A stretch of DNA of 8,719 nucleotides. It comes from Acidimicrobiaceae bacterium. GTDB taxonomy: Bacteria > Actinomycetota > Acidimicrobiia > Acidimicrobiales > RAAP-2. The notes below the pieces were generated by a model. The model made no database searches, was not told the origin of the DNA, and saw only the letters and a program-made list of their open reading frames with translations. Positions 1-8,719 of this stretch are shown here, one piece after another; positions within the stretch are counted from its first letter, which is position 1, and every line of letters begins with the position of its first letter. The DNA lies in assembly GCA_030838245.1 (NCBI GenBank), contig JAUTXB010000142.1, forward strand, positions 1-8,719, read 5' to 3'. The position numbers and the translations under genes were made by a program.

Positions 1-1192
1 CCACGTGATCGAGGTGGGTGGGCTCGGGCAGCTCGCTGGGGTTGTCCACGTCCACCTTGGTGCCGTCGGTCAGGTAGGCCTGGTAGGCCACCGAGGGGGC
101 GGTGGCGATGAGGGACAGGTCGAACTCGCGCTCGAGCCGCTCTCGGACGATCTCCATGTGCAACAGGCCAAGGAACCCGCACCGGAACCCGAACCCGAGC
201 GCTCGAGAGGACTCGGGCTCATAGGTGAAGCTGGCGTCGTTCAGGCGGAGCTTCTCCAGCGCGTCGCGCAGGTCGGGAAGCTCGTCGCCGTCGATGGGGA
301 ACAGCCCGCAGAAGACCATGGGCTTGGGGTCCCGGTACCCGGCCAACGCCTCGGTGGCCGAGTGGGTAGCCGTGGTGACGGTCTCGCCCGACCGGGCCCC
401 GCCTACGTCCTTGATCCCGGCCACCAGGTAGCCGACCTCGCCGGGCCCGAGTTCGTCGACGGCCACGGTGGCCGGCGTGCGGACGCCGATCTCTTCGATC
501 TCGTGGTTCTCCCGGGCGTGGATGAAGCGGAGCTTGGCCGTCTTGACCAGCATCCCCTGCATGACCCGGATGGAGCTGACCACGCCGCGGTACTGGTCGT
601 AGGCGGAGTCGAAGATGAGGGCCTGCAGCGGTGCGTCCACATCGCCGGCCGGCGGGGGGATGCGCTCAACGATGGCGTCGAGGAGCTCGGGGACGCCTTG
701 TCCCGTCTTGGCCGAGATGTGGAGAATCTGGGAGGCATCGAGGCCCAGCACCTGTTCGATCTCGGCTGCGCACCGCTCGGGGTCGGCGGCGGGAAGGTCG
801 ATCTTGTTGAGCACGGCCACGATCTCCAAGTTGTGCTCCACCGCCTGATAGCAGTTGGCCAGCGTCTGGGCCTGGATCCCCTGGGAGGCATCGACCAGCA
901 GGACCGCACCCTCGCAGGCGGCAAGCGAACGGCTGACCTCGTAGCCGAAGTCCAAATGGCCGGGGGTGTCGATGATGTGGTGGGTGTGGTCCTTCCAGCC
1001 GACGCGCAAGTTCTGCGGCTTGATGGTGATGCCCCGCTCCCGCTCGATGTCCATCGAGTCGAGGTACTGCTCGCGCATCAGCCTGGGGTCGACGGCACCG
1101 GTCAGCTCCAGGATGCGGTCGGACAGCGTCGACTTGCCGTGGTCGACATGGCTGATGATTGATAAATTGCGGATTCGGTCGACGGGATGCAC
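1..1192 (-). CDS. lepA: Elongation factor 4 (LepA), 3'-truncated by window edge
   Basis: Ribosome-associated translational GTPase that remodels or back-translocates stalled ribosomes in the cytoplasm. Reading the minus strand from 1192 gives about 397 codons, open to the window edge; the family is about 600 residues, so the C-terminal third lies outside. All GTPase motifs are visible: P-loop DHGKSTL at residues 17-23, switch I RERGITIK at 51-58, DTPGH at 75-79 with the catalytic His79, NKID at 129-132 and SAKTG at 160-164. The LepA signature [20 protein letters not shown] follows at roughly 325-345. The start is GTG at 1192-1190: an in-frame TAG lies just upstream at 1243-1241 with no other start codon between, and the N-terminus [13 protein letters not shown] matches the family. 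The Shine-Dalgarno is weak (GAAGAG). It is transcribed away from the accessory block. The family assignment is certain; the exact start is very likely. Confidence 0.97.
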
Positions 1193-1467
1193 GGGCTCTT
1201 CAGCGTACCGTCGACCGGCCGGTGCCCAAGCCCACTGGCCCTATTGCCTGACAATCCCTGGCGCCAGCACTGTCCGTTGACCTTGTTTATCCAACCGCGG
1301 GCTTCAGTGACTACCGGTCAGCGCCAACCGGCTTCAATTGCTTCTATTTGTCCAAATGAAAGCTGCTTGACTCCCAGTATTCCTCATGCCAGCCTTAGCA
1401 AAGATGCCCAAACGGGGGCGATCGTTTTCTCGGGGTGCGGCCCCGGTAGCGAGGAGAAGACGGGGGA
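1193..1467. other. AT-richer intergenic region between lepA and the Tat-signal gene
   Basis: This 275-bp gap separates two divergent genes, so it must carry the lepA promoter and probably one for the 1468 gene. Hand counting gives 66 G/C in 130 bases for 1271-1400 (about 51%), clearly lower than the flanking coding DNA. Loose -35-like TTGACC (1277) and TTGACT (1367) occur on the plus strand, but neither has a convincing -10 at 16-19 bp. A short GC hairpin (CGGGG/CCCCG, 1431-1445) lies just before the ribosome-binding site of the downstream gene. I see no gene or RNA here. Confidence 0.5.
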
Positions 1468-1911
1468 TTGGGCAGCGAACTTTCACGGCGTAGGTTCCTG
1501 ACGCTCGGTGCAGCCATTGCCGGGGCTGCGCTCGTGCCGACCGGGGTCGAGGCGGCCGCAGCTTCGGTGCCATCGAAGTACCCGAAGAACGCTGCGGCGG
1601 GTGGCCGCTTCCCCTATGCGTTGGCCTCGTGGCAGGAGATCGGCAGCGCACCGCTCCGCGTCAGCCTTCCCCACGGTCGATCGACGAAGCTGCGGGTGCA
1701 AAAGGCCACTGATCTGGCCCAGCCGAGCCGACCATCGGCACACGGAGACGAGTTCTCCCTGACGTTCTCGGTGGATGGAGCCGTCCCCAGCGAGGGCACG
1801 TATACCTTCAACCACTCGTCGCTCGGCACCTTCCCGCTATTCCTCTCTCCGGCCGACCATGGACGGGTCACTGCTCTGGTCAACCGGAGCCACGGGGTCC
1901 ACCACCGATGA
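1468..1911 (+). CDS. Tat-exported DUF6916-like protein, function unknown
   Basis: 147 residues. The N-terminus has a twin-arginine motif SRRRFL at residues 6-11, then a hydrophobic, Ala-rich stretch (13-25) and likely cleavage sites around 30-33 (VEAAAAS). It should therefore be folded in the cytoplasm and exported by the Tat pathway. The mature part (about 55-143) has the pattern I associate with DUF6916: a G-x-P-L-R-V strand, FSLTF at 96-100, GTYTFNH at 110-116 and LFLSP at 124-128, ending in an NR-containing strand. The same pattern recurs in the minus-strand gene at 2404-2727, so the two are likely paralogues. The start is TTG at 1468: an in-frame TAG at 1447 excludes anything further upstream, and AGGAG (1452-1456) lies 11 bp ahead. 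The stop overlaps the next start as ATGA. No catalytic residues are evident. The Tat signal is strong; the family assignment is by eye. Confidence 0.8.
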   Translation: MGSELSRRRFLTLGAAIAGAALVPTGVEAAAASVPSKYPKNAAAGGRFPYALASWQEIGSAPLRVSLPHGRSTKLRVQKATDLAQPSRPSAHGDEFSLTFSVDGAVPSEGTYTFNHSSLGTFPLFLSPADHGRVTALVNRSHGVHHR

Positions 1912-2429
1912 GGACAATAGATCGCACTCCGATAGATCACGGACTGGCCAAGATCTCGCTCCGGCCTCGAACCGACAGCGACAAACACTTCCTGTTGGCC
2001 CTCTATGTCGATGGTCGGGATGACGCGTGGTCATTTGGTTGGAGCCCGGACGCGGTCCGAGAGTTCATGGACATGCAGTTCCGGGCTCGGGAGTACTCGT
2101 TCGGTATCAGTTACCCTGAGGCCCAGTCGGACATCGTGGTGGTCGACGGCCGGGCCGTCGGCCGACTCCTCGTGGACCGCCGGCCTCACGGGATCCACCT
2201 GGTCGACATCGCTCTTTTGAGCGAACACCGAGGGATGGGTATCGGGAGCAGGCTGATCACCGGCCTCATCGAGGAGGCGGTGCTAACCGAGCGACCCGTC
2301 TGCCTGCAGGTGCAGCGGGGCAGTCGGGCCCTCGACCTCTACGAGCGGATTGGCTTTGTCGGTGTCACCGAGAGCACTGCGCTCGATCCCTCGGCGATGT
2401 ACCTCACGATGGAGTACCGAGCCTCGTGA
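1908..2429 (+). CDS. GNAT family N-acetyltransferase
   Basis: 173-residue single-domain GNAT, expected to move an acetyl group from acetyl-CoA to an amine; the substrate is unknown. Motif A is clear: DIALLSEHRGMGIGSRLI at about 100-117, with the R-G-x-G-x-G pyrophosphate-binding loop at 108-113. Motif B follows as ALDLYERIGF at 141-150. The N-terminal part (FLLALYVDGRDD, then MQFRAREYSF and VGRLLVDRR) resembles the GNATs that sit beside tail-collar and DUF6916 genes in other bacteria. The ATG overlaps the upstream TGA by 4 bp (ATGA) and lacks its own Shine-Dalgarno, so translation is probably coupled to the Tat-signal gene. Its last 26 bp overlap the end of the minus-strand DUF6916-like gene. 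There is no signal peptide or membrane segment, so it acts in the cytoplasm, perhaps modifying a product of this locus before export (inference). Confidence 0.92.
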   Translation: MRTIDRTPIDHGLAKISLRPRTDSDKHFLLALYVDGRDDAWSFGWSPDAVREFMDMQFRAREYSFGISYPEAQSDIVVVDGRAVGRLLVDRRPHGIHLVDIALLSEHRGMGIGSRLITGLIEEAVLTERPVCLQVQRGSRALDLYERIGFVGVTESTALDPSAMYLTMEYRAS

Positions 2430-2727
2430 AGACCGCCTCGTACGTGATCGACTCCCCCTGGCGGCCGATGGGCACGATGAACACCAAGATGGTCCCTTCG
2501 GCCGGATGGGCGAGCTCATACGTCCCTTGGGCCAGGGGCTCGGAAGCCGGTCCATGGAAAAGCACCGAGAAGGTGCTCGCCTGGCCGGCGGTTGCCGGTG
2601 GGTCGCCATCCAGGGTGGTCAACTCGAGGTCGACGGTGGTCCCTCCAGCCAGGTGCACGGCGAACCGTTGGCCGATGTTGCGGGCGAACATGGCGTACTG
2701 GGGGTCGGAGTGCGGGACGCCGGTCAT
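2404..2727 (-). CDS. Leaderless DUF6916-like protein, function unknown
   Basis: 107 residues, with no signal peptide or membrane segment. Visible landmarks are FARNIGQRFAVHL at 14-26, FSVLFHG at 53-59, GTYELAHP at 68-75, the hydrophobic strand ILVFIVPIG at 80-88 and YEAVFTRLG at 96-104. These match the DUF6916 pattern and align with the Tat-exported protein at 1468 (GTYxxxH, then a hydrophobic strand ending in P). The compact all-beta appearance suggests a small binding or structural domain, but no function is established. ATG at 2727 is the preferred start; GTG at 2736 and ATG at 2691 are alternatives, and none has a good Shine-Dalgarno. The gene is divergent from the collar operon (84 bp apart) and convergent with the GNAT gene, overlapping it by 26 bp. 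A longer open frame extends upstream to 3129 but lies inside the collar gene and is not protein-like. Confidence 0.78.
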   Translation of the reverse strand: MTGVPHSDPQYAMFARNIGQRFAVHLAGGTTVDLELTTLDGDPPATAGQASTFSVLFHGPASEPLAQGTYELAHPAEGTILVFIVPIGRQGESITYEAVFTRLGTPS

Positions 2728-2753
2728 CGAGGGCACAGTCTCGCATGGGCTGT

Positions 2754-2769
2754 CCGCCCACGAGGGCGG
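2754..2769. promoter_or_regulatory. Perfect 6-bp inverted repeat in the divergent promoter region
   Basis: CCGCCC (2754-2759) and GGGCGG (2764-2769) flank the 4-base loop ACGA. The repeat sits midway in the 84-bp region between the minus-strand DUF6916-like gene and the first collar gene, 42 bp before the collar ATG. It could be an operator shared by both divergent promoters, or a hairpin in a 5' leader. The region must hold at least one promoter, but I find no clear -35/-10 pair. CCCCGGGG at 2793-2800 is a second palindrome and merges with the collar ribosome-binding site. Confidence 0.35.
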
Positions 2770-2811
2770 CCGGTCGATGCTCGAGCGGCCATCCCCGGGG
2801 AAGGCCCTTCG

Positions 2812-3339
2812 ATGAGTCAGCCCTACATCGGTGAGATCCGGATGGTCGGGTTCAACTTCGCCCCCCAGGGGTGGGCGTTCTGCGACGGCTCGGCCATGGC
2901 CATCTCCCAGAACGCGGCGCTGTTCAATCTCATCGGCACGACCTACGGCGGCGACGGGCAGACCACGTTCAACTTGCCCGACCTCCGTGGCCGGATGGCC
3001 CTCCACCAAGGGACGGACGGGCAGGGGAATGCCAGGGTGCTCGGGCAGACGTTGGGTGCGGAGTCGGTGACGCTGCAGACGGCCACCATCCCCGCGCACT
3101 CCCACGGTGCGGCGGCAGTGACCGCCCACGGGAACCAGCCCGGGCCTTCGGGGGCGACATGGGCGACCGCCTCAGGGGGGGTCAATCCCTACTCCACGGC
3201 GGCCGAGAACGCCACCTTGCATGCCGGGGCCATCGCCAACGCCCCGGCCAACGGCGGGCAGGCCCACGAGAACATGTCCCCGTTCCTGGTGATCAACTTC
3301 GTCATCTCCCTCTTCGGGATCTTCCCGTCGCAACTATGA
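2812..3339 (+). CDS. Tail-collar (MdpB-like) protein 1
   Basis: 175 residues. The N-terminal phage tail collar domain spans about 5-63 (GEIRMVGFNFAPQGWAFCDG, then ISQNAALFNLIGTTYGG and TTFNLPDLRGR). The middle is variable and rich in Gly, Ala and His, and the C-terminus NMSPFLVINFVISLFGIFPS is conserved in microcystin-dependent-protein-like collars (COG4675). H96 and H98 form an HSH motif; in T4 tail-fibre proteins such HxH motifs bind metal in a trimeric fibre, so metal-bound trimerisation is possible. H152 is also shared by all three copies. There is no signal peptide. ATG at 2812 is preceded by GGGGAAGG (2797-2804) 7 bp upstream, and the collar signature begins at residue 5, so longer in-frame upstream sequence is not coding. 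It is the first gene of the collar and surface-protein operon. No sheath, tube or baseplate genes accompany it, so this is not an intact phage tail. Confidence 0.93.
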   Translation: MSQPYIGEIRMVGFNFAPQGWAFCDGSAMAISQNAALFNLIGTTYGGDGQTTFNLPDLRGRMALHQGTDGQGNARVLGQTLGAESVTLQTATIPAHSHGAAAVTAHGNQPGPSGATWATASGGVNPYSTAAENATLHAGAIANAPANGGQAHENMSPFLVINFVISLFGIFPSQL

Positions 3340-3391
3340 GACGCCCTGAGTCCGTCGTGCCCTCCATTGCCCACGAAGAAGGGGGTCACCC

Positions 3392-3895
3392 ATGACGTCG
3401 CCGTTCCTGGCCGAGATCCGGGTGGTCTCGTTCAGCTTCGCGCCGAAGGGGTGGGCGCTGTGCAACGGGCAGATCCTGCCCATCAACCAGAACCAGGCGC
3501 TGTTCTCGCTGCTGGGCACGACCTACGGGGGAAACGGCACGACAAGCTTTGCCCTCCCCAATCTGGAGGGGTCGGTGCCGGTGCACATGGGCACGGGCTT
3601 CCCGCAGGGACAGAGCGGTGGCGAGGCCGCGCACCTCCTGACCACTCCGGAGCTCCCGAGCCACTCCCACGGCGTGTCGGTTGCGTCGGGGTCGGGCACG
3701 GCACTCAGCCCGGTCAACAACTACTGGGCCGGGGTGAAGAACGCCAACCCGTACAGCACCGCGGCCCCGACGACGACACTGAACCCCACCACCGTTGGTG
3801 CCGGTGGTGCCGGGCAGCCTCACGACAACATGCCGCCTGGTCTCGTCCTGAACTACATCATTTCCCTGCAGGGCATCTTCCCGAGTAGGAACTGA
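3392..3895 (+). CDS. Tail-collar (MdpB-like) protein 2
   Basis: 167 residues, paralogous to its two neighbours. The collar domain is at about 5-62 (AEIRVVSFSFAPKGWALCNG, ILPINQNQALFSLLGTTYGG, FALPNLEG). The HSH motif is at 91-93, H144 lies in the PHDNM segment, and the C-terminus is LVLNYIISLQGIFPSRN. It has no signal peptide. ATG at 3392 follows a purine-rich AAGAAGGGGG (3376-3385) by 6 bp. It starts 52 bp after collar 1 ends and is separated from collar 3 by only 2 bp, so it is clearly co-transcribed. DNA identity with collar 3 is high in places; a 27-base run around 3459 recurs near 3965, which points to tandem duplication. The role is probably the same as collar 1, either as a separate fibre or in a hetero-oligomer with the other two (inference). 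Confidence 0.93.
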   Translation: MTSPFLAEIRVVSFSFAPKGWALCNGQILPINQNQALFSLLGTTYGGNGTTSFALPNLEGSVPVHMGTGFPQGQSGGEAAHLLTTPELPSHSHGVSVASGSGTALSPVNNYWAGVKNANPYSTAAPTTTLNPTTVGAGGAGQPHDNMPPGLVLNYIISLQGIFPSRN

Positions 3896-3897
3896 CG

Positions 3898-4410
3898 GTG
3901 ACCGATCAATTCATAGGCGAGATCCGGGCGGTGGGATTCAACTTCGCCCCGCAGGGGTGGGCGATGTGCAACGGGCAGATCCTGCCCATCAGCCAGAACA
4001 CCGCCCTGTTCTCACTACTGGGGACGTTCTACGGCGGCGACGGGAAGACCAACTTCGCCCTCCCCAACCTGCAGAACAGCACCCCGCTTGACCAAGGGAG
4101 CGGCCCCGGTCTCACGCCCCGAGACATCGGCGAGACCGGCGGGGTGCCGAACGTGACGCTGCTCACCAACCAGGCGCCCGTGCACAGCCATCCCGCCCAC
4201 GCCGTGGCCGCGGCCGGAAACCAGGTGGGCCCCGGAGGAAATCTAACCGCCGAGGTCCGCGCCGACTCGTACGCTCCAACGAGCAACAGCCAGATGAGTC
4301 CGGCGGCCCTGCAGCCAACGGGCGGTGGCCTCGCGCACAACAACCTCCCCCCGTACCTGACCCTCAACTTCGTTATTGCCCTGACCGGCATCTTCCCGGC
4401 GAGGAACTGA
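3898..4410 (+). CDS. Tail-collar (MdpB-like) protein 3
   Basis: 170 residues. The collar domain is at about 5-62 (GEIRAVGFNFAPQGWAMCNG, ILPISQNTALFSLLGTFYGG, FALPNLQN). The HSH motif is at 96-98 and extends to HSHPAH, H147 precedes NNLPPYLTLNFVIALTGIFP, and the protein ends ARN. The start is GTG at 3898, two bases after the collar 2 stop, with AGGA (3886-3889) upstream inside that gene. GTG is preferred because it places MTDQFIGEIR exactly where the paralogues begin (MSQPYIGEIR, MTSPFLAEIR). There is no signal peptide. Its stop lies 7 bp before the large surface-protein gene, so the collar triplet and that protein are expressed together. The middle part (about 65-140) differs most between the three copies and may set specificity, as in fibre tips (inference). 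Confidence 0.93.
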   Translation: MTDQFIGEIRAVGFNFAPQGWAMCNGQILPISQNTALFSLLGTFYGGDGKTNFALPNLQNSTPLDQGSGPGLTPRDIGETGGVPNVTLLTNQAPVHSHPAHAVAAAGNQVGPGGNLTAEVRADSYAPTSNSQMSPAALQPTGGGLAHNNLPPYLTLNFVIALTGIFPARN

Positions 4411-4417
4411 GTCGAAC

Positions 4418-7400
4418 ATGAGGCTCACGGCGCGGTGGAGGTCTCGGCTCGCGGCCCTGGTCGTGGTGGCGGCGGTAGCTGTGCCGGTGGCCGTGGTGGT
4501 CGAGCCGGTGGCGGCCGGAGCCGCGCCTGGAGCACTCGACCCCTCGTTTGGCACAGGCGGCCTGGTGACGACCGCGATCACCGCGGGAGCCGCGGACGTC
4601 GTCAATGCCGTCGCCACCCAGTCGGACGGGAAGGTCGTGGCTGCCGGCTACGACCAGCCCTCGGGTGGGGTCCAGGTCTTCGCCCTCGCCCGCTACAACA
4701 CGGACGGGACACTGGACGGCACCTTCGGGAGCGGCGGCAAGGTGACGACGGCCATCGCCGGGGCCAACAGCAACGGTGACGCGGCTCTGGCCGTGGCCGT
4801 GCAGGGCAACGGAAAGATCGTCGTCGGTGGGTACACGTCGACGCTGACCGGTGGCTCGGCCACCGAGGAGATGGCGCTCGTCCGCTACAACGCCAACGGC
4901 ACGCTCGACGGCACGTTCGGAACCGGAGGCATCACCACCGTTGTCGGTGGGTCGAACGCCTTCACCAACCAGATCAACGCGCTGGCCATCGACAGCTCGG
5001 GCCGGATCGTGGTCGCCGGTCAGTACGACAACGGTTGGGCGGTGGCCCGGTTCACCAGTGCCGGGGCTCTGGACACCACCTTCGACTCGGGGGGCACCCA
5101 ACCCGGCTTCCAGCTCTCGTTCCCGGCGGCGGTGACCCCTACGGACAACGCCTACGCCGTGGCCATTCAACCGAGCGACCAGAAGGTGGTGGTCGCCGGT
5201 AGCGCCAACGCCAATGCCGACTTCGGCCTGGCCCGCCTGGGCACGGACGGAACCCTCGATGCCACCTTCGGGACCGGCGGGCTGGTCGACACCCCCGTGG
5301 GTGGGTCGGCCGGAACCGCCTACGGCGTGGCCGTGCAGGGCGACGGGAACATCGTGGCCGTCGGCCAGTCCGGTGACGACAACCCCGGTGACCACCTGGA
5401 TGTCGCCCTGGCTCGCTACAGCGGCACTGGGGCGCTCGACGGCACGTTCGGAACCGGGGGCATCGTCAACACGCCCATCGGCACCAACCAGGACGCGGCC
5501 GGACGGGCCGTCACGTTGCAGACCGACGGCCAGATCGTGGTGGGTGGGTACTTCCAAGCCGCGGTGGGCGGCGACGACGTCGCCGTTCTGCGGTACAGCG
5601 CCAGCAACGGCCAGCTCGACACCACCTTCGGTACGGGGGGCATCGTCACCACCAACACCGGCGGGGCGGACGATTTCGGCAATGCCGTAGCCCTCGAGCC
5701 CGGGTCCCTGAGCGCAATCGTCGCCGCCGGGAGCGACCAGCCCTCGGGCGGAACCTCCCAGTTCCTCTTGGCTCGGTACTTGGCTGCCATTCCTCCGAGC
5801 ATCACCAAATCCTTCGGGGCCGCCTCCATCCCGCTCAACGGCACCACCTCGCTCACACTGCAGATCACCAACCCGGGCACCGCGGCGATGACCGGCGTGG
5901 CCTTCACCGACACCTTGCCGGCCGGACTGGTCGTGGCCACCCCCAACGGGCTGACGTCCACCTGTGGCGGCACAGCCACGGCCGGATCGGGCACGGTGAG
6001 CCTGTCAGGGGGTTCGCTCGCGGCCAGCGCCAGCTGCTCGGTGGTGGCCAACGTGAAGGGCACGTCGGGTGGGGTCAAGAACAACTCGGTCACCGTCTCC
6101 TCTGACGCCGGCACCGGCAACACCTCCAACGCCAGCCTCACCGTGGTGGCCCCACCGGTGATCATCAAGGCCTTCGGCGCCGCCTCCATCCCGCTCAACG
6201 GCACGACCTCGTTGACCTTCACCATCCAGAACAACAACGCCAACACCACCCTCACTGGGGTCGGATTCGGTGACACCTTGCCCGCCGGCTTGGTGGTGGC
6301 CACGCCCAACGGGCTGACCGGATCGTGCGGGGGCGGGACGGTCACGGCCACCGCCGGCTCCAGCACGGTGAGCCTGACCGGGGCGACCCTGCCCGCCAGC
6401 GCCCAGTGCACCTTCTCGATCAACGTGACCGGCACCACGCCCGGCACCAAGAACAACACCACCGGACAGGTGACCTCCACCGAGGGGGGCACCGGGGGGA
6501 CGGCCTCGGCCAGCCTCTCGGTCGTGGCCCCGCCCAGCATCGCCAAGTCCTTCAGCCCCGCCTCCATCGCCAACGGATCGACCAGCTCGCTGACCTTCAC
6601 CATCACCAACCCGGGGGCCAACAGTGCGGCACTCACCGGCGTGGGCTTCACCGACACGCTGCCGGCCGGTATCACCGTGGCCAGCTCGTCGGCCTCGGTC
6701 TGCAGCGGCACGCTCACCACGACGAGCCCGGCCGGCATCGCCCTGACCGGGGCCACAATCGCCACCGGCGCCCACTGCCAGTTCTCGGTCACGGTCACGG
6801 CCACCGCCAATGGGAGCTACACCAACACCACCGGGGCGGTGACCTCCACCAACGGCGGGACCGGGAACACCGCGTCGGCCAGCCTGACCGTTGGTACCGC
6901 TACGACCACCGCGCTCGATCTGTCCACCAACCCGTCCGTGTTCGGCCAGACGGTGGTCTTCACCGCCACCGTGGCCCCGGTCCCAGACGGGGGAACGGTG
7001 GCCTTCACCAACGGTGGGAACCCGGTGACCGGCTGCTCAGCCGTGGCGCTCAACTCGGGTTCCGCGGTCTGCTCGATTAGTACCCTCAGCGTCGGTTCCC
7101 ACTCAATCGTTGCTACGTACTCGGGCGACACCAACTTCGTGGGCTCGGTGTCCCCGGTCCACTCTCAGACGGTGCACCGGGCATCGATCACGACGACCAT
7201 TGCCTCGTCGCTCAATCCATCCGTCGCCGGTGACACGGTGACCTACTCGGCGGGGGTGGCTGTCGTCCCACCCGGTGCCGGAGCTCCTGGCGGGACGGTG
7301 TCCTTCACCGACGGAGGGACCACCATCAACGGCTGTGGCGCAGTTGCCCTCACCGCAGGTTCTGCCACTTGTCCGACCAGCTATGCGTCCAGTGGCACGC

Positions 7401-8107
7401 ACACCATCGTCGCTACCTACTCGGGCGACGCCAGCTTTGCTACATCGACTTCCGGCCAGCTCAAGCAAAAGGTCGTGTCCACTCCGACGGGGTACCTCCT
7501 GGGTGCCGCCGACGGCGGAGTCTTCCCTTACGGAACGGCGACCTTCCACGGCTCGATGGGCGGCCAGCCCCTCAACGCCCCGGTGGCGGGCATCGCCTCG
7601 ACACCGGACTTGGGGGGCTATTGGCTGGTGGGCGCAGATGGCGGCGTCTTCGCCTTCGGTGACGCCCCCTTCGCCGGCTCGATGGGCGGCCAGCACCTCA
7701 ACGCCCCGGTGGTGGGCATCGCCTCGACCCCGGATGGCCAGGGCTACTGGCTGGTGGCCGCCGATGGCGGTGTCTTCGCCTTCGGAAGCGCCCAGTTCGC
7801 CGGCTCGATGGGCGGCATGCCCTTGAACGCTCCGGTAGTGGGCATTACCGCCGCTGCCGGTGATCATGGCTACCGCCTGGTGGGCGCCGATGGTGGGGTC
7901 TTCAATTTTGGGAGCGCACACTTCCACGGCTCGATGGGGGGCAAGCACCTCAACGCTCCCATGGTGGGCATCGCTTCGACCCCGGACGGGCACGGCTATT
8001 GGCTGGTGGGCGCCGACGGCGGCGTCTTCAGCTTCGGAAACGCCCAGTTCGCCGGCTCGATGGGGGGCAAGCACCTCAACGCCCCGATGGTGGGCATCGC
8101 CGGATAA
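4418..8107 (+). CDS. Large secreted modular repeat protein (delta-60, DUF11-like, Ig-like, C-terminal 42-residue repeats)
   Basis: 1229 residues. A signal peptide covers about 1-36 (RWRSR, hydrophobic core 11-29, cleavage near AGAAPG). Residues 39-455 hold seven delta-60 repeats, each with an LDxTFGxGG turn (L40, 99, 163, 218, 280, 340, 400) and an ALARY-like strand; seven copies suggest a seven-bladed propeller. Three DUF11/DUF7933-like domains follow (459-577, 579-704, 706-826), then two bacterial Ig-like domains (828-919, 922-1020). From 1025 five GYWLVGADGGVFxFG repeats run at exactly 42 residues. The ten cysteines all fall in the five central domains, two in each (516/540, 637/664, 762/787, 873/885, 973/985), as expected for extracellular disulfides. 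No LPxTG motif, C-terminal membrane segment or catalytic motif is seen. ATG at 4418 follows GAGGA (4401-4405), 7 bp after collar 3. It is probably an adhesin or display stalk. Confidence 0.92.
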   Translation: MRLTARWRSRLAALVVVAAVAVPVAVVVEPVAAGAAPGALDPSFGTGGLVTTAITAGAADVVNAVATQSDGKVVAAGYDQPSGGVQVFALARYNTDGTLDGTFGSGGKVTTAIAGANSNGDAALAVAVQGNGKIVVGGYTSTLTGGSATEEMALVRYNANGTLDGTFGTGGITTVVGGSNAFTNQINALAIDSSGRIVVAGQYDNGWAVARFTSAGALDTTFDSGGTQPGFQLSFPAAVTPTDNAYAVAIQPSDQKVVVAGSANANADFGLARLGTDGTLDATFGTGGLVDTPVGGSAGTAYGVAVQGDGNIVAVGQSGDDNPGDHLDVALARYSGTGALDGTFGTGGIVNTPIGTNQDAAGRAVTLQTDGQIVVGGYFQAAVGGDDVAVLRYSASNGQLDTTFGTGGIVTTNTGGADDFGNAVALEPGSLSAIVAAGSDQPSGGTSQFLLARYLAAIPPSITKSFGAASIPLNGTTSLTLQITNPGTAAMTGVAFTDTLPAGLVVATPNGLTSTCGGTATAGSGTVSLSGGSLAASASCSVVANVKGTSGGVKNNSVTVSSDAGTGNTSNASLTVVAPPVIIKAFGAASIPLNGTTSLTFTIQNNNANTTLTGVGFGDTLPAGLVVATPNGLTGSCGGGTVTATAGSSTVSLTGATLPASAQCTFSINVTGTTPGTKNNTTGQVTSTEGGTGGTASASLSVVAPPSIAKSFSPASIANGSTSSLTFTITNPGANSAALTGVGFTDTLPAGITVASSSASVCSGTLTTTSPAGIALTGATIATGAHCQFSVTVTATANGSYTNTTGAVTSTNGGTGNTASASLTVGTATTTALDLSTNPSVFGQTVVFTATVAPVPDGGTVAFTNGGNPVTGCSAVALNSGSAVCSISTLSVGSHSIVATYSGDTNFVGSVSPVHSQTVHRASITTTIASSLNPSVAGDTVTYSAGVAVVPPGAGAPGGTVSFTDGGTTINGCGAVALTAGSATCPTSYASSGTHTIVATYSGDASFATSTSGQLKQKVVSTPTGYLLGAADGGVFPYGTATFHGSMGGQPLNAPVAGIASTPDLGGYWLVGADGGVFAFGDAPFAGSMGGQHLNAPVVGIASTPDGQGYWLVAADGGVFAFGSAQFAGSMGGMPLNAPVVGITAAAGDHGYRLVGADGGVFNFGSAHFHGSMGGKHLNAPMVGIASTPDGHGYWLVGADGGVFSFGNAQFAGSMGGKHLNAPMVGIAG
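4532..5782 (+). repeat. Seven delta-60 repeats within the surface protein
   Basis: Seven units of about 55-64 codons (spacings 59, 64, 55, 62, 60, 60 between successive LD turns). Each contains a Q-x-D/N-G-K-I-V-V-x-G strand, an A-L-A-R-Y strand and an L-D-x-T-F-G-x-G-G turn. Repeat 4 is the most diverged (LDTTFDSGG, with a longer insert after it). The array begins with an LD turn directly after the signal peptide and closes with an ARY strand. Confidence 0.9.
5792..6895 (+). repeat. Three tandem DUF11/DUF7933-like domain repeats
   Basis: Three units of about 120 codons, each starting with a P-x-I-x-K-x-F motif, then TSLTFTIxN, TGVGFxDTLPAG, a Cys pair, and a GTGxTxxASLxV end. Units 1 and 2 share long stretches of near-identical DNA exactly 360 bp apart (for example 5821-5850 against 6181-6210, with one mismatch), so they arose by fairly recent duplication. 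Unit 3 is more diverged. Confidence 0.88.
7490..8104 (+). repeat. Five 126-bp tandem repeats coding 42-residue units
   Basis: Units begin at 7490, 7616, 7742, 7868 and 7994, with no indels between them. The consensus reads GYWLVGADGGVFxFGxAxF, then xGSMGGxxLNAPVVGIASTPDG. The last unit stops after 37 residues at GIAG. DNA identity is patchy and mosaic: units 3 and 5 share one block (GCCCAGTTCGCCGGCTCGAT) while units 4 and 5 share another (GGGGGGCAAGCACCTCAACG), which suggests gene conversion between units. These repeats are common on secreted proteins of Acidimicrobiia and relatives; their function is unknown. Confidence 0.93.
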
Positions 8108-8115
8108 GGCGAGAC

Positions 8116-8138
8116 CCCGGCCCTCATTGGGATCCGGG
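8116..8138 (+). terminator. Possible hairpin terminator after the surface-protein operon
   Basis: CCCGG (8116-8120) pairs with CCGGG (8134-8138), and the inner CCC (8121-8123) pairs with GGG (8129-8131), leaving loop TCATT and a 2-base bulge. It lies 8 bp after the TAA at 8105-8107. There is no T-tract, which is common in high-GC actinobacteria but lowers certainty. It overlaps the -35 element proposed for rpsT. Confidence 0.4.
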
Positions 8139-8156
8139 CCCCCCGACTGCTAACCT
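8127..8156 (+). promoter_or_regulatory. Probable rpsT promoter
   Basis: A -35 TTGGGA (8127-8132) and an actinobacterial-type -10 TAACCT (8151-8156, TAnnnT) are separated by 18 bp. Transcription would start near 8163 and give a leader of about 105 nt before the rpsT GTG. A separate promoter is expected for a ribosomal protein gene lying behind an accessory operon. Confidence 0.5.
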
Positions 8157-8166
8157 GCACTGTCTC

Positions 8167-8193
8167 GCCGGGGAACCCTTAGGGCTTTCCGGC
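8167..8193 (+). promoter_or_regulatory. Leader hairpin of rpsT
   Basis: GCCGG (8167-8171) pairs with CCGGC (8189-8193). Inside it GAA can pair with TTT and CCC with GGG around a TTA loop, giving a long stem with single-base bulges. It would sit at the very 5' end of the rpsT transcript predicted from the promoter at 8127-8156. S20 represses its own translation in E. coli, so a control element is possible; mRNA stabilisation or attenuation are alternatives. Confidence 0.35.
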
Positions 8194-8267
8194 CACGATC
8201 TCCAGCCGACCCGCTGCCGCTGTGGGTGACGACAGGACCGATTTCCCGAGCACAACAAGGACGAGCC

Positions 8268-8546
8268 GTGGCAAACATCCGTAGCCAGATCAAGCGCAAC
8301 CGCCAGAACGAGAAGCTCCGCGCCCGGAACAAGGCGGTGCGTTCGGAGCTTCGCACCCGGACCAAGCGAGCCATCATCGCGGCCGAGACCGGGGCCGAGG
8401 ACAGTTACGAAGCGCTGCGACAGGCCATCAAGCGCATCGACAAGGCTGCAGCCAAGGGCGTCATCCACAAGAATCAGGCCGCCAATCGCAAGGCCCGCCT
8501 CATGAAGCACACCGCCGCGTTCACCGCCGAAGACGAAGAGGGCTGA
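8268..8546 (+). CDS. rpsT: 30S ribosomal protein S20
   Basis: 92 residues, the normal length for S20, a primary-binding 30S protein that contacts 16S rRNA and helps early small-subunit assembly. The N-terminus MANIRSQIKRNRQNEK is the family hallmark, followed by basic helices (RARNKAVRSELRTRTKR), a central segment with SYEALRQAIKRIDKAAAKGVIH, and the typical KNQAANRKARLMK tail. The start is GTG at 8268 with AAGGA (8257-8261) 6 bp upstream. An in-frame ATG at 8226 would add 14 residues absent from the family and is rejected. It has its own probable promoter and leader hairpin, and a GC hairpin follows at 8568-8583. It is oriented away from lepA, an arrangement common in Actinobacteria, but here about 7 kb separates them. 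Confidence 0.98.
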   Translation: MANIRSQIKRNRQNEKLRARNKAVRSELRTRTKRAIIAAETGAEDSYEALRQAIKRIDKAAAKGVIHKNQAANRKARLMKHTAAFTAEDEEG

Positions 8547-8567
8547 CGCTCACCGCTCGGACCTCTA

Positions 8568-8583
8568 GGGCCTGCTCAGGCCC
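8568..8583 (+). terminator. Hairpin after rpsT, probable terminator
   Basis: GGGCCT (8568-8573) and AGGCCC (8578-8583) form a perfect 6-bp stem with loop GCTC, 21 bp after the rpsT stop. There is no T-tract. A second inverted repeat, CCCTGTT (8597-8603) and AACAGGG (8629-8635), follows and could serve either strand if a convergent gene ends here. Confidence 0.55.
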
Positions 8584-8621
8584 GTATGCCATCGGGCCCT
8601 GTTGAACGCTCGCCCGTAGGG

Positions 8622-8719
8622 TCAGTCGAACAGGGTTGGGGCTTGTAGCTGTACCGGGACGACTTCGTCCTCATCGACGTCGTCAGGGGCGATCTAGTCC
8701 GGCTCGTCGTTGGCGACGT
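8622..8719 (-). other. Possible 3' end of a convergent gene, unresolved
   Basis: On the minus strand one frame reads VANDEPD, then TAG (8696-8694), then IAPDDVDEDEVVPVQLQ and APTLFD before TGA (8624-8622). The part after the TAG looks like a real protein tail: an acidic linker, then a Q-L-rich end finishing in TLFD. Either a gene ends at the TAG and the rest is chance, or one gene carries an in-frame stop. The opposite strand is also open from 8649 to the window edge, with even stronger third-position GC but no start codon in view. In many Actinobacteria holA lies next on this strand, but I cannot recognise it here. Confidence 0.25.

Follow-up and report, generated by a model that had tools for sequence, protein, structure and literature searches.

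Results

The collar locus and its genes

The stretch of DNA analysed here, called the window throughout, is 8,719 nucleotides of contig JAUTXB010000142.1 from an Acidimicrobiaceae bacterium (assembly GCA_030838245.1), read from position 1 to 8,719 of the forward strand. It carries three tandem phage tail-collar genes, which we call C1, C2 and C3, together with two DUF6916 genes, a GNAT acetyltransferase gene and a gene for a giant secreted repeat protein. In this study, we show that C1, C2 and C3 recur jointly across bacteria, commonly with GNAT and DUF6916 and in most full-length neighbourhoods with a giant export-type repeat protein, and that they are old, distinct paralogues, mostly present once each per locus. 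The genes of the cassette are the following:

1468..1911, plus strand: DUF6916 protein with a twin-arginine (Tat-type) N-terminus, 147 aa (Pfam PF21880, E 3.5e-10)
1908..2429, plus strand: GNAT acetyltransferase, 173 aa (PF00583, E 5.7e-10)
2404..2727, minus strand: short DUF6916 protein, no signal, 107 aa (PF21880, E 3.9e-23)
2812..3339, plus strand: collar protein C1, 175 aa (PF07484, E 7.8e-30; clade C1)
3392..3895, plus strand: collar protein C2, 167 aa (PF07484, E 2.6e-26; clade C2)
3898..4410, plus strand: collar protein C3, 170 aa (PF07484, E 7.9e-27; clade C3)
4418..8107, plus strand: giant secreted repeat protein, 1229 aa (Pfam DUF5122/delta-60, DUF11, DUF7933, Big_3_5)

All genes named in the original prediction, namely three collars, two DUF6916-like genes, a GNAT and a 1229-residue secreted repeat protein, are borne out by Pfam, the signal peptide of the giant being judged by eye. 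The three collars score 91.8-103.1 bits against PF07484 (cut-off 24), and each combines an HxH motif with a length of 167-175 aa and no shaft. The protein at 1468..1911 starts with RRRFL and a hydrophobic stretch, its match to the TAT_signal model (E 0.002) being below the cut-off of that model. The GNAT gene overlaps the end of this gene by 4 bp and encodes the acetyl-CoA-type motif RGMGIG. Length and start (~2727) of the short DUF6916 protein were taken from an identical 107-aa database protein; AlphaFold2 predicts a small beta-rich fold for it (predicted local distance difference test, pLDDT, 89; predicted template modelling score, pTM, 0.80). The giant is made up of a signal-like N-terminus, 6-7 delta-60/DUF5122 propeller repeats, three DUF7933/DUF11-type domains and a pair of Ig-like domains; repeats of 42 residues form an array at its C-terminus, and its gene ends in a 126-bp tandem repeat (7507-8101) coding for GYWLVGADGGVFxFG-type units. 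With a signal peptide and tandem Ig-like and other stalk repeats, the giant has what is expected of a fibrillar adhesin; Pfam recognised no cell-surface anchor domain in it.

The genes for C1, C2, C3 and the giant follow one another on the plus strand with gaps of 52, 2 and 7 bp. Because no sigma-70-like promoter was found in the window, and terminator-like sites occur there at chance level, we infer an operon from spacing and orientation. The spacing of 7 bp in the claim that a collar operon continues into the giant is borne out, but the second DUF6916 gene lies on the opposite strand and the run leading up to the giant consists of C1-C2-C3 only. The cassette is flanked by lepA (minus strand, 2-1192, cut) and rpsT (plus strand, 8226-8546), which argue for an ordinary chromosome. 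Among the seven window proteins, PHROGs found tail families in the three collars only and, besides these, one acetyltransferase family; sheath, tube, baseplate and lysis genes were absent from the locus in this search. A prophage remnant was rejected on these limited matches, and the view that the locus is neither a prophage nor a tailocin also agrees with the survey of sheath genes discussed below. PADLOC assigned no defence family to any of the seven proteins, which leaves a defence system in the window without support.

Recurrence of the cassette across bacteria

Scanning GTDB contigs with C3 yielded 77 loci, of which 58 (L081-L138) form a close group, the C3 set, with counterparts ~42-59% identical to the window collars. 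It comprises 14 Pseudomonadota, 12 Acidobacteriota, 11 Bacteroidota, 10 Actinomycetota, 4 Bacillota, 3 Verrucomicrobiota and 2 Vulcanimicrobiota loci, with one each from Armatimonadota and Ignavibacteriota, and collar triplets were found in nine phyla. At least three collar open reading frames (ORFs) are present in 54/58 loci, a GNAT in 43/58 and DUF6916 in 39/58, some loci being cut by contig ends; collars, GNAT and DUF6916 stand together in 36/58, and in 30/58 a giant joins them. This combination of collars, GNAT and DUF6916 extends over seven of the nine phyla, Bacillota and Vulcanimicrobiota being the two without it in the C3 set.

In order to avoid a choice of loci based on collars, a second set (DUF set) was drawn from genomes sampled by phylum and searched with DUF6916 only. 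DUF6916 was found in 44/398 Pseudomonadota, 13/296 Actinomycetota, 5/198 Bacteroidota and 10/149 Acidobacteriota genomes, each count including one centre genome already known to be positive. For the first two phyla, 53 of the 57 matching genomes (all except centres G010 and G004 and the weak matches G034 and G107) gave 55 windows, of which 51 hold a collar and 50 a GNAT; at a 60-bit cut, 32 hold exactly three collars, 15 one and four two. For Bacteroidota and Acidobacteriota, 13 of 15 genomes were used (all except centres G003 and G005; a second place in G956 lies outside its window), and 11 of the 14 windows hold a triplet and three no collar. Taken together, 62/69 windows drawn by DUF6916 carry collars. 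Forty control windows from the DUF-set genomes contained no collar, no DUF6916 and two GNAT matches. The two sets overlap (L087 equals L207 and L128 equals L171, so that 2/55 DUF-set windows are also C3-set loci); L123 and L125 are near copies, and L089/L102 and L170/L172 share stretches.

The cassette is found on plasmids as well. C3 is matched by 67 plasmid records. Forty annotated loci were listed and eight of them opened; at seven of the eight, a large protein is encoded next to the collars, annotated as Ig-like (three), VcbS, YDG, choice-of-anchor D or merely hypothetical (>4000 aa), and one of these seven, L246, has a single collar. A Deinococcus plasmid (L242) likewise carries triplet, GNAT and DUF6916. 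The eighth locus, from Azospirillum oryzae (L247), has a triplet and no giant neighbour within 9 kb; its triplet, GNAT and DUF6916 genes lie among lasso-peptide-type, 2-oxoglutarate (2OG)-oxygenase and glycosyltransferase genes. As such, the recurrence of this neighbourhood across phyla is real, and the expectation that it would be met in distant bacteria held in the C3 set and in windows chosen by DUF6916 only: conserved co-occurrence beyond close relatives was looked for and found, with giants strongly enriched beside the collars.

Some loci have further genes next to the cassette. A Peripla_BP_6 gene (~385-435 aa) adjoins it in some Bacteroidota, Ignavibacteriota and Deinococcus loci, and in the first two listed here the domain begins at residue 3-4, seemingly with no room for a signal peptide:

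L122, 4257-5417: Peripla_BP_6 neighbour
L132, 11075-12223: Peripla_BP_6 neighbour
L100, 6714-8021: Peripla_BP_6 neighbour
L242, 9614-10861: Peripla_BP_6 neighbour

In two Eremiobacterota-type loci, the triplet is followed by a ~300-aa ORF (L129, 2473-3378; L131, 11130-12041) that begins like a lipoprotein and contains part of a collar domain, while its C-terminal part is not of collar type.

Three old collar paralogues

A FastTree phylogeny was built from 181 collar units of 60 loci (the 58 of the C3 set, locus L001 and the window). In this tree, C1, C2 and C3 of the window fall in three separate clades of 54-58 loci each, and 51/60 loci have exactly one member of each clade, in the gene orders 2-1-3 (27 loci), 1-2-3 (14), 1-3-2 (9) and 3-2-1 (1). 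With the DUF set added, 59 three-unit loci resolve cleanly into one of each (46/53 in the C3 set, 13/32 in the DUF set); at the remaining 26, the clade cut left some members unplaced or placed them twice. A locus-specific clade was seen in 0/85 triplets. An IQ-TREE analysis of 83 units, from 24 triplet-bearing sources including the window and from nine single-collar loci, recovered three clades. That of C1 has 24 units, each from a different locus (support 56), and that of C2 has 23, again each from a locus of its own (support 95); the C3 clade contains 24 C3 units and a single unit labelled C2 (support 83). Two C1-labelled units fall elsewhere in the tree, and two units from single-collar loci branch beside C3. 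The tree is not sharp everywhere, yet the clade pattern means that the triplication is old and that the three copies are not freely interchangeable. An IMG/VR 'viral' contig (L001, 5315-8531), which may be a misfiled bacterial contig, has a tandem double triplet in the order 1-2-3-1-2-3.

The HxH motif is present in 298/300 collars. Loci with a single collar lie outside the three clades in 15/15 cases in the larger FastTree phylogeny and constitute a separate subfamily, which keeps HxH and in 14/15 cases is missing an HxN..P motif; these forms probably make homotrimers. At four of them (L188, L198, L199 and L204), GNAT, DUF6916 and a giant are all present.

Giants of differing make-up beside the collars

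Giants were recognised among plain ORFs by composition (fraction of RHCWP <0.17 and of NDTSGV >0.45). For Fisher tests, we used full windows (>=19 kb) only and counted stalk-like ORFs of >=1000 aa, which gave 27/36 windows in the C3 set and 22/35 in the DUF set, compared to 5/40 controls (p 2e-8 and 6e-6). A wider count, which keeps giants cut by contig ends, finds a stalk-type ORF of >=800 aa within 4 kb of the collars at 72 loci (41/58 in the C3 set, 31/55 in the DUF set), the 'giants' of L123 and L125 being just 848-851 aa. All 11 DUF-set triplets from Bacteroidota and Acidobacteriota have one as well, and within the C3 set the pairing repeats in seven phyla with different giants.

At these 72 loci, giants on the strand of the collars come after them in 33 cases and before them in 18; another 19 giants are upstream and divergent, and two are convergent, where ~18 convergent cases would be expected if orientation were free (p 3e-7). 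A large repeat protein following the third collar, as in the window, is therefore one layout among several: downstream same-strand placement is the commonest, but just 13/72 giants come directly after the collars within 200 bp.

The giants have no common architecture. Pfam was run on 65 of the 72 (all except L123, L125, L135, L166, L175, L178 and L192) and on that of the window; among the 25 commonest families of the matches listed per scan, Big_9 occurs in 31 of these 66 giants and Cadherin_4 in 27, next to DUF11, calx-beta, He_PIG and others. On the same basis, the export and anchor tags include a type 9 secretion system (T9SS) sorting domain in at least four, SLH in one, RTX repeats in at least six, an autotransporter barrel in at least three and DUF4347 in at least 12. 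The conserved feature is thus that the head genes are accompanied by a giant protein of surface type, while the giants themselves differ in domains and in export route.

Relation of the collars to T4 gp12

The closest well-known solved fold for the collars is that of the short tail fibre gp12 of phage T4, in which HxH holds a metal; Thomassen et al. reportedly described it in 2003 as trimeric, metal-binding and knitted. Natural proteins exist in which three collars are fused, many of them circularly permuted and with export signals. A profile of these fusions matches PDB entry 1ocy (T4 gp12) with E 8e-9 and entry 8kec with E 3e-12, while C3 alone reaches no better than E 0.27 with 1ocy; comparison of structures gave matches to this kind of fibre as well. 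The model predicted for L137, one of the natural fusions, would fit a closed trimer. L137 was not used as a C1-C2-C3 fusion, its three units having all been placed with C1 in the first clade assignment. The three-collar fusions are likely the one-chain version of the same head. Together with the one-each retention of the paralogues, we consider it probable that C1, C2 and C3 fold jointly as a single heterotrimeric receptor-binding head of the T4 gp12 type, with metal bound by one HxH per chain. Of the fibre-like trimers that had been proposed, the trimer would thus stand, most likely as one heterotrimer of three paralogues and not as three homotrimers.

Discussion

Taken as a whole, the cassette reads as a chromosomal, domesticated phage-fibre cassette whose collars would form a heterotrimeric binding head with bound metal, working together with a surface stalk, a reading to which we give an even chance. 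Within it, the giant would be swapped between lineages and would leave the cell by whichever route the host offers (Sec, type 1, type 5, type 9 or S-layer). Outside the cell, the head could bind a glycan or surface polymer, either as a tip or as a clamp, with the giant as its stalk or anchor; for this part the arguments on either side are about balanced. Considerably more tentative, and on the whole doubtful, are the roles of the accessory proteins: the short DUF6916 may be a cytoplasmic assembly partner, the Tat-borne DUF6916 may take the pre-folded head through the membrane or receive it, and the GNAT may acetylate the small N-terminal residues of the collars. A small second residue occurs in 140/155 collars (20 more have no start within 12 residues), which in the absence of a baseline is a hint only. 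The motif [RQ]xxGx[GA] is kept in 92/97 neighbourhood GNATs. For DUF6916, a search of PDB returned no relative (the best match having E 0.54), its sequences show no charged residue that is close to invariant, and comparison of structures, in which a fold shared with the c-di-GMP domains PilZ and PilZN was considered, was not decisive; the open-access literature searched contains no mention of it.

How, then, would the head reach the outside? C1-C3 of the window and most cassette collars have no signal peptide, nor has the short DUF6916. This speaks for an alternative in which the collars remain cytoplasmic and assist the giant there as chaperone, assembly checkpoint or export regulator, with DUF6916 and GNAT as partners, and RhiA, encoded beside the distant collar RhiB, is described as a highly expressed cytoplasmic protein (PMC2275737). 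However, all three collars of L108 and two of L096 (whose first collar is cut) start with Sec-type signals, and C2 and C3 of L130, though not C1, with Tat-like ones. Fused three-collar relatives carry signal peptides and PEP-CTERM-type tails, a collar-domain protein, which may or may not belong to a triplet, is included in the exoproteome of Ruegeria pomeroyi grown with Synechococcus (PMC4949626), and the collar fold is that of a receptor-binding head. On this evidence, cytoplasmic collars appear unlikely. For a head that acts outside, co-export in folded form by a Tat-borne DUF6916 partner is conceivable, because about 25/113 loci, the window among them, carry a Tat-type DUF6916, some with a lipobox-like cysteine (a script for Tat starts flagged 28 DUF6916 ORFs in the 113 loci, of which those of L107, L135 and L220 were spurious by eye). 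Most loci have no such gene, which weighs against the Tat step of the reading favoured here.

A second alternative regards the collars as exchangeable tail fibres of a contractile injection system whose genes lie elsewhere on the genome, and the giant as a second, unrelated surface gene. In Acaryochloris marina MBIC11017, genes annotated as phage tail collar (AM1_3688-3690), acetyltransferase (AM1_3686) and unknown (AM1_3687 and AM1_3684), identified by annotation alone, are all strongly higher in low far-red light (log2 -3.2 to -4.0; PMC11633204). Counterparts of AM1_3686-3689 are in the top list of strain MU13, where the induced genes of table 2 also include a sheath and a baseplate gene (PMC11633204), and some fibres of extracellular contractile injection systems (eCIS) are described with phage collar domains (PMC12923769). 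Against this, only 23 of the 61 genomes surveyed gave a sheath match (above the cut-off in 19), with matches from ordinary prophages counted and drafts that may be incomplete, and 38 gave none, while 58/61 hold a collar in a DUF6916 or C3 window (all except G067, G087 and G505, which have DUF6916 and no collar there). Within the limits of draft genomes, the cassette thus seems independent of a sheath. Moreover, the block itself has no sheath, tube or baseplate gene and the window collars no shaft, which makes service to a contractile apparatus improbable.

The pairing of collars and giants could also be a by-product, if both were accessory genes that gather in the same variable spots of the genome. 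The giants do lack a common domain and a fixed position, some triplets have no giant in range, and the controls were not matched for variable regions. Nevertheless, the scarcity of convergent giants, their enrichment relative to other windows of the same genomes and the repetition of the pairing in seven phyla and at seven of the eight opened plasmid loci leave this explanation only a slim chance. It is more improbable still that the cassette is turned against phages or rivals, by release or by display, for instance as a decoy head competing for phage receptors: a phage-derived head might bind the cell-surface sugars that phages bind, and the spread is patchy and includes plasmids, yet the PADLOC search, made on the window, found no defence family and the cassette sits here beside lepA and rpsT.

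Returning to a phage-derived head working with a surface stalk, its parts can be set beside several known systems. T4 gp12 (1ocy, 5iv5) and the tail fibre of cyanophage A-1(L) (8kec) share the collar domain in a trimeric, metal-binding head, but the cassette has three paralogous chains instead of one, no shaft and no surrounding phage genes, and resides on chromosomes and plasmids with GNAT, DUF6916 and a giant. Known fibrillar adhesins and giant Ig, cadherin and RTX surface proteins share Big, cadherin, DUF11, calx-beta and propeller repeats with the cassette giants, some of which bear surface or export tags as well. Known proteins of this kind have a binding tip of their own; in the cassette, the gene for a separate head of phage type lies beside that of the giant. 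The tail fibres of eCIS and tailocins are likewise phage collar heads used in bacteria, from which the cassette differs in having no contractile apparatus at its locus. The three-collar proteins annotated as 'microcystin-dependent protein' or 'tail fiber protein' also have three collar units and export signals, many with PEP-CTERM-type tails, but are fused and often circularly permuted. In a soil metaproteome, COG4675 ('microcystin-dependent protein') is listed with Acidithrix, Pedobacter and Ramlibacter (PMC5579227).

RhiB is the sole collar relative we met whose operon has a described role: the rhiABC operon of Rhizobium is reported to be rhizosphere-expressed, controlled by quorum sensing and of influence on nodulation. 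Like the cassette collars, RhiB is a bacterial collar outside a phage, with HxH. It is very distant, as the collar profile gives E 4e-9 for RhiB and 1e-45 or better for cassette collars, and stands as a single collar in a 45-kb Rhi stretch with no GNAT or DUF6916 profile match and no annotated giant beside it. Pfam matches neither RhiA nor RhiC. Judged by gene content, the window has no LuxR-type regulator, as known for rhiABC, among its genes between lepA and rpsT.

That the neighbourhood had no assigned function, as originally stated, agrees with the open-access literature we searched (preprints and most subscription papers lie outside it), which contains no description of a collar triplet with GNAT, DUF6916 and a giant. 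We file the cassette as surface adhesion with a phage-derived head and not as a new class, because adhesion and contact between head and stalk are what we infer. A new class is possible nonetheless: a phage receptor-binding trimer would have been triplicated into an obligate heterotrimer before spreading through the phyla, and would be assembled in the cytoplasm with DUF6916, exported folded (in some lineages perhaps by a Tat-borne DUF6916 or by Tat signals on two of the three chains) and mounted on whichever giant stalk the host possesses, giving asymmetric heads with three different faces. In this full form we regard the proposal as rather unlikely. The strongest of the new points are the one-each retention of three old paralogues, the natural, also permuted, single-chain forms with three units and the repeated pairing with differing giants.

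The carriers of the cassette are many unrelated soil and water bacteria, in which it looks like a shared cell-surface binding apparatus borrowed from phages. If this is true, a sizeable share of bacteria (DUF6916 occurs in 2.5 to 7 per cent of the genomes sampled in three phyla, besides the Pseudomonadota count given above) would hold an undescribed surface-binding system that is at present labelled 'tail fiber protein' or 'microcystin-dependent protein'. It would give DUF6916 a function and explain the collar proteins found outside phages, and it would offer a natural heterotrimeric gp12-type head, useful for asking how phage parts turn into organs of their hosts.

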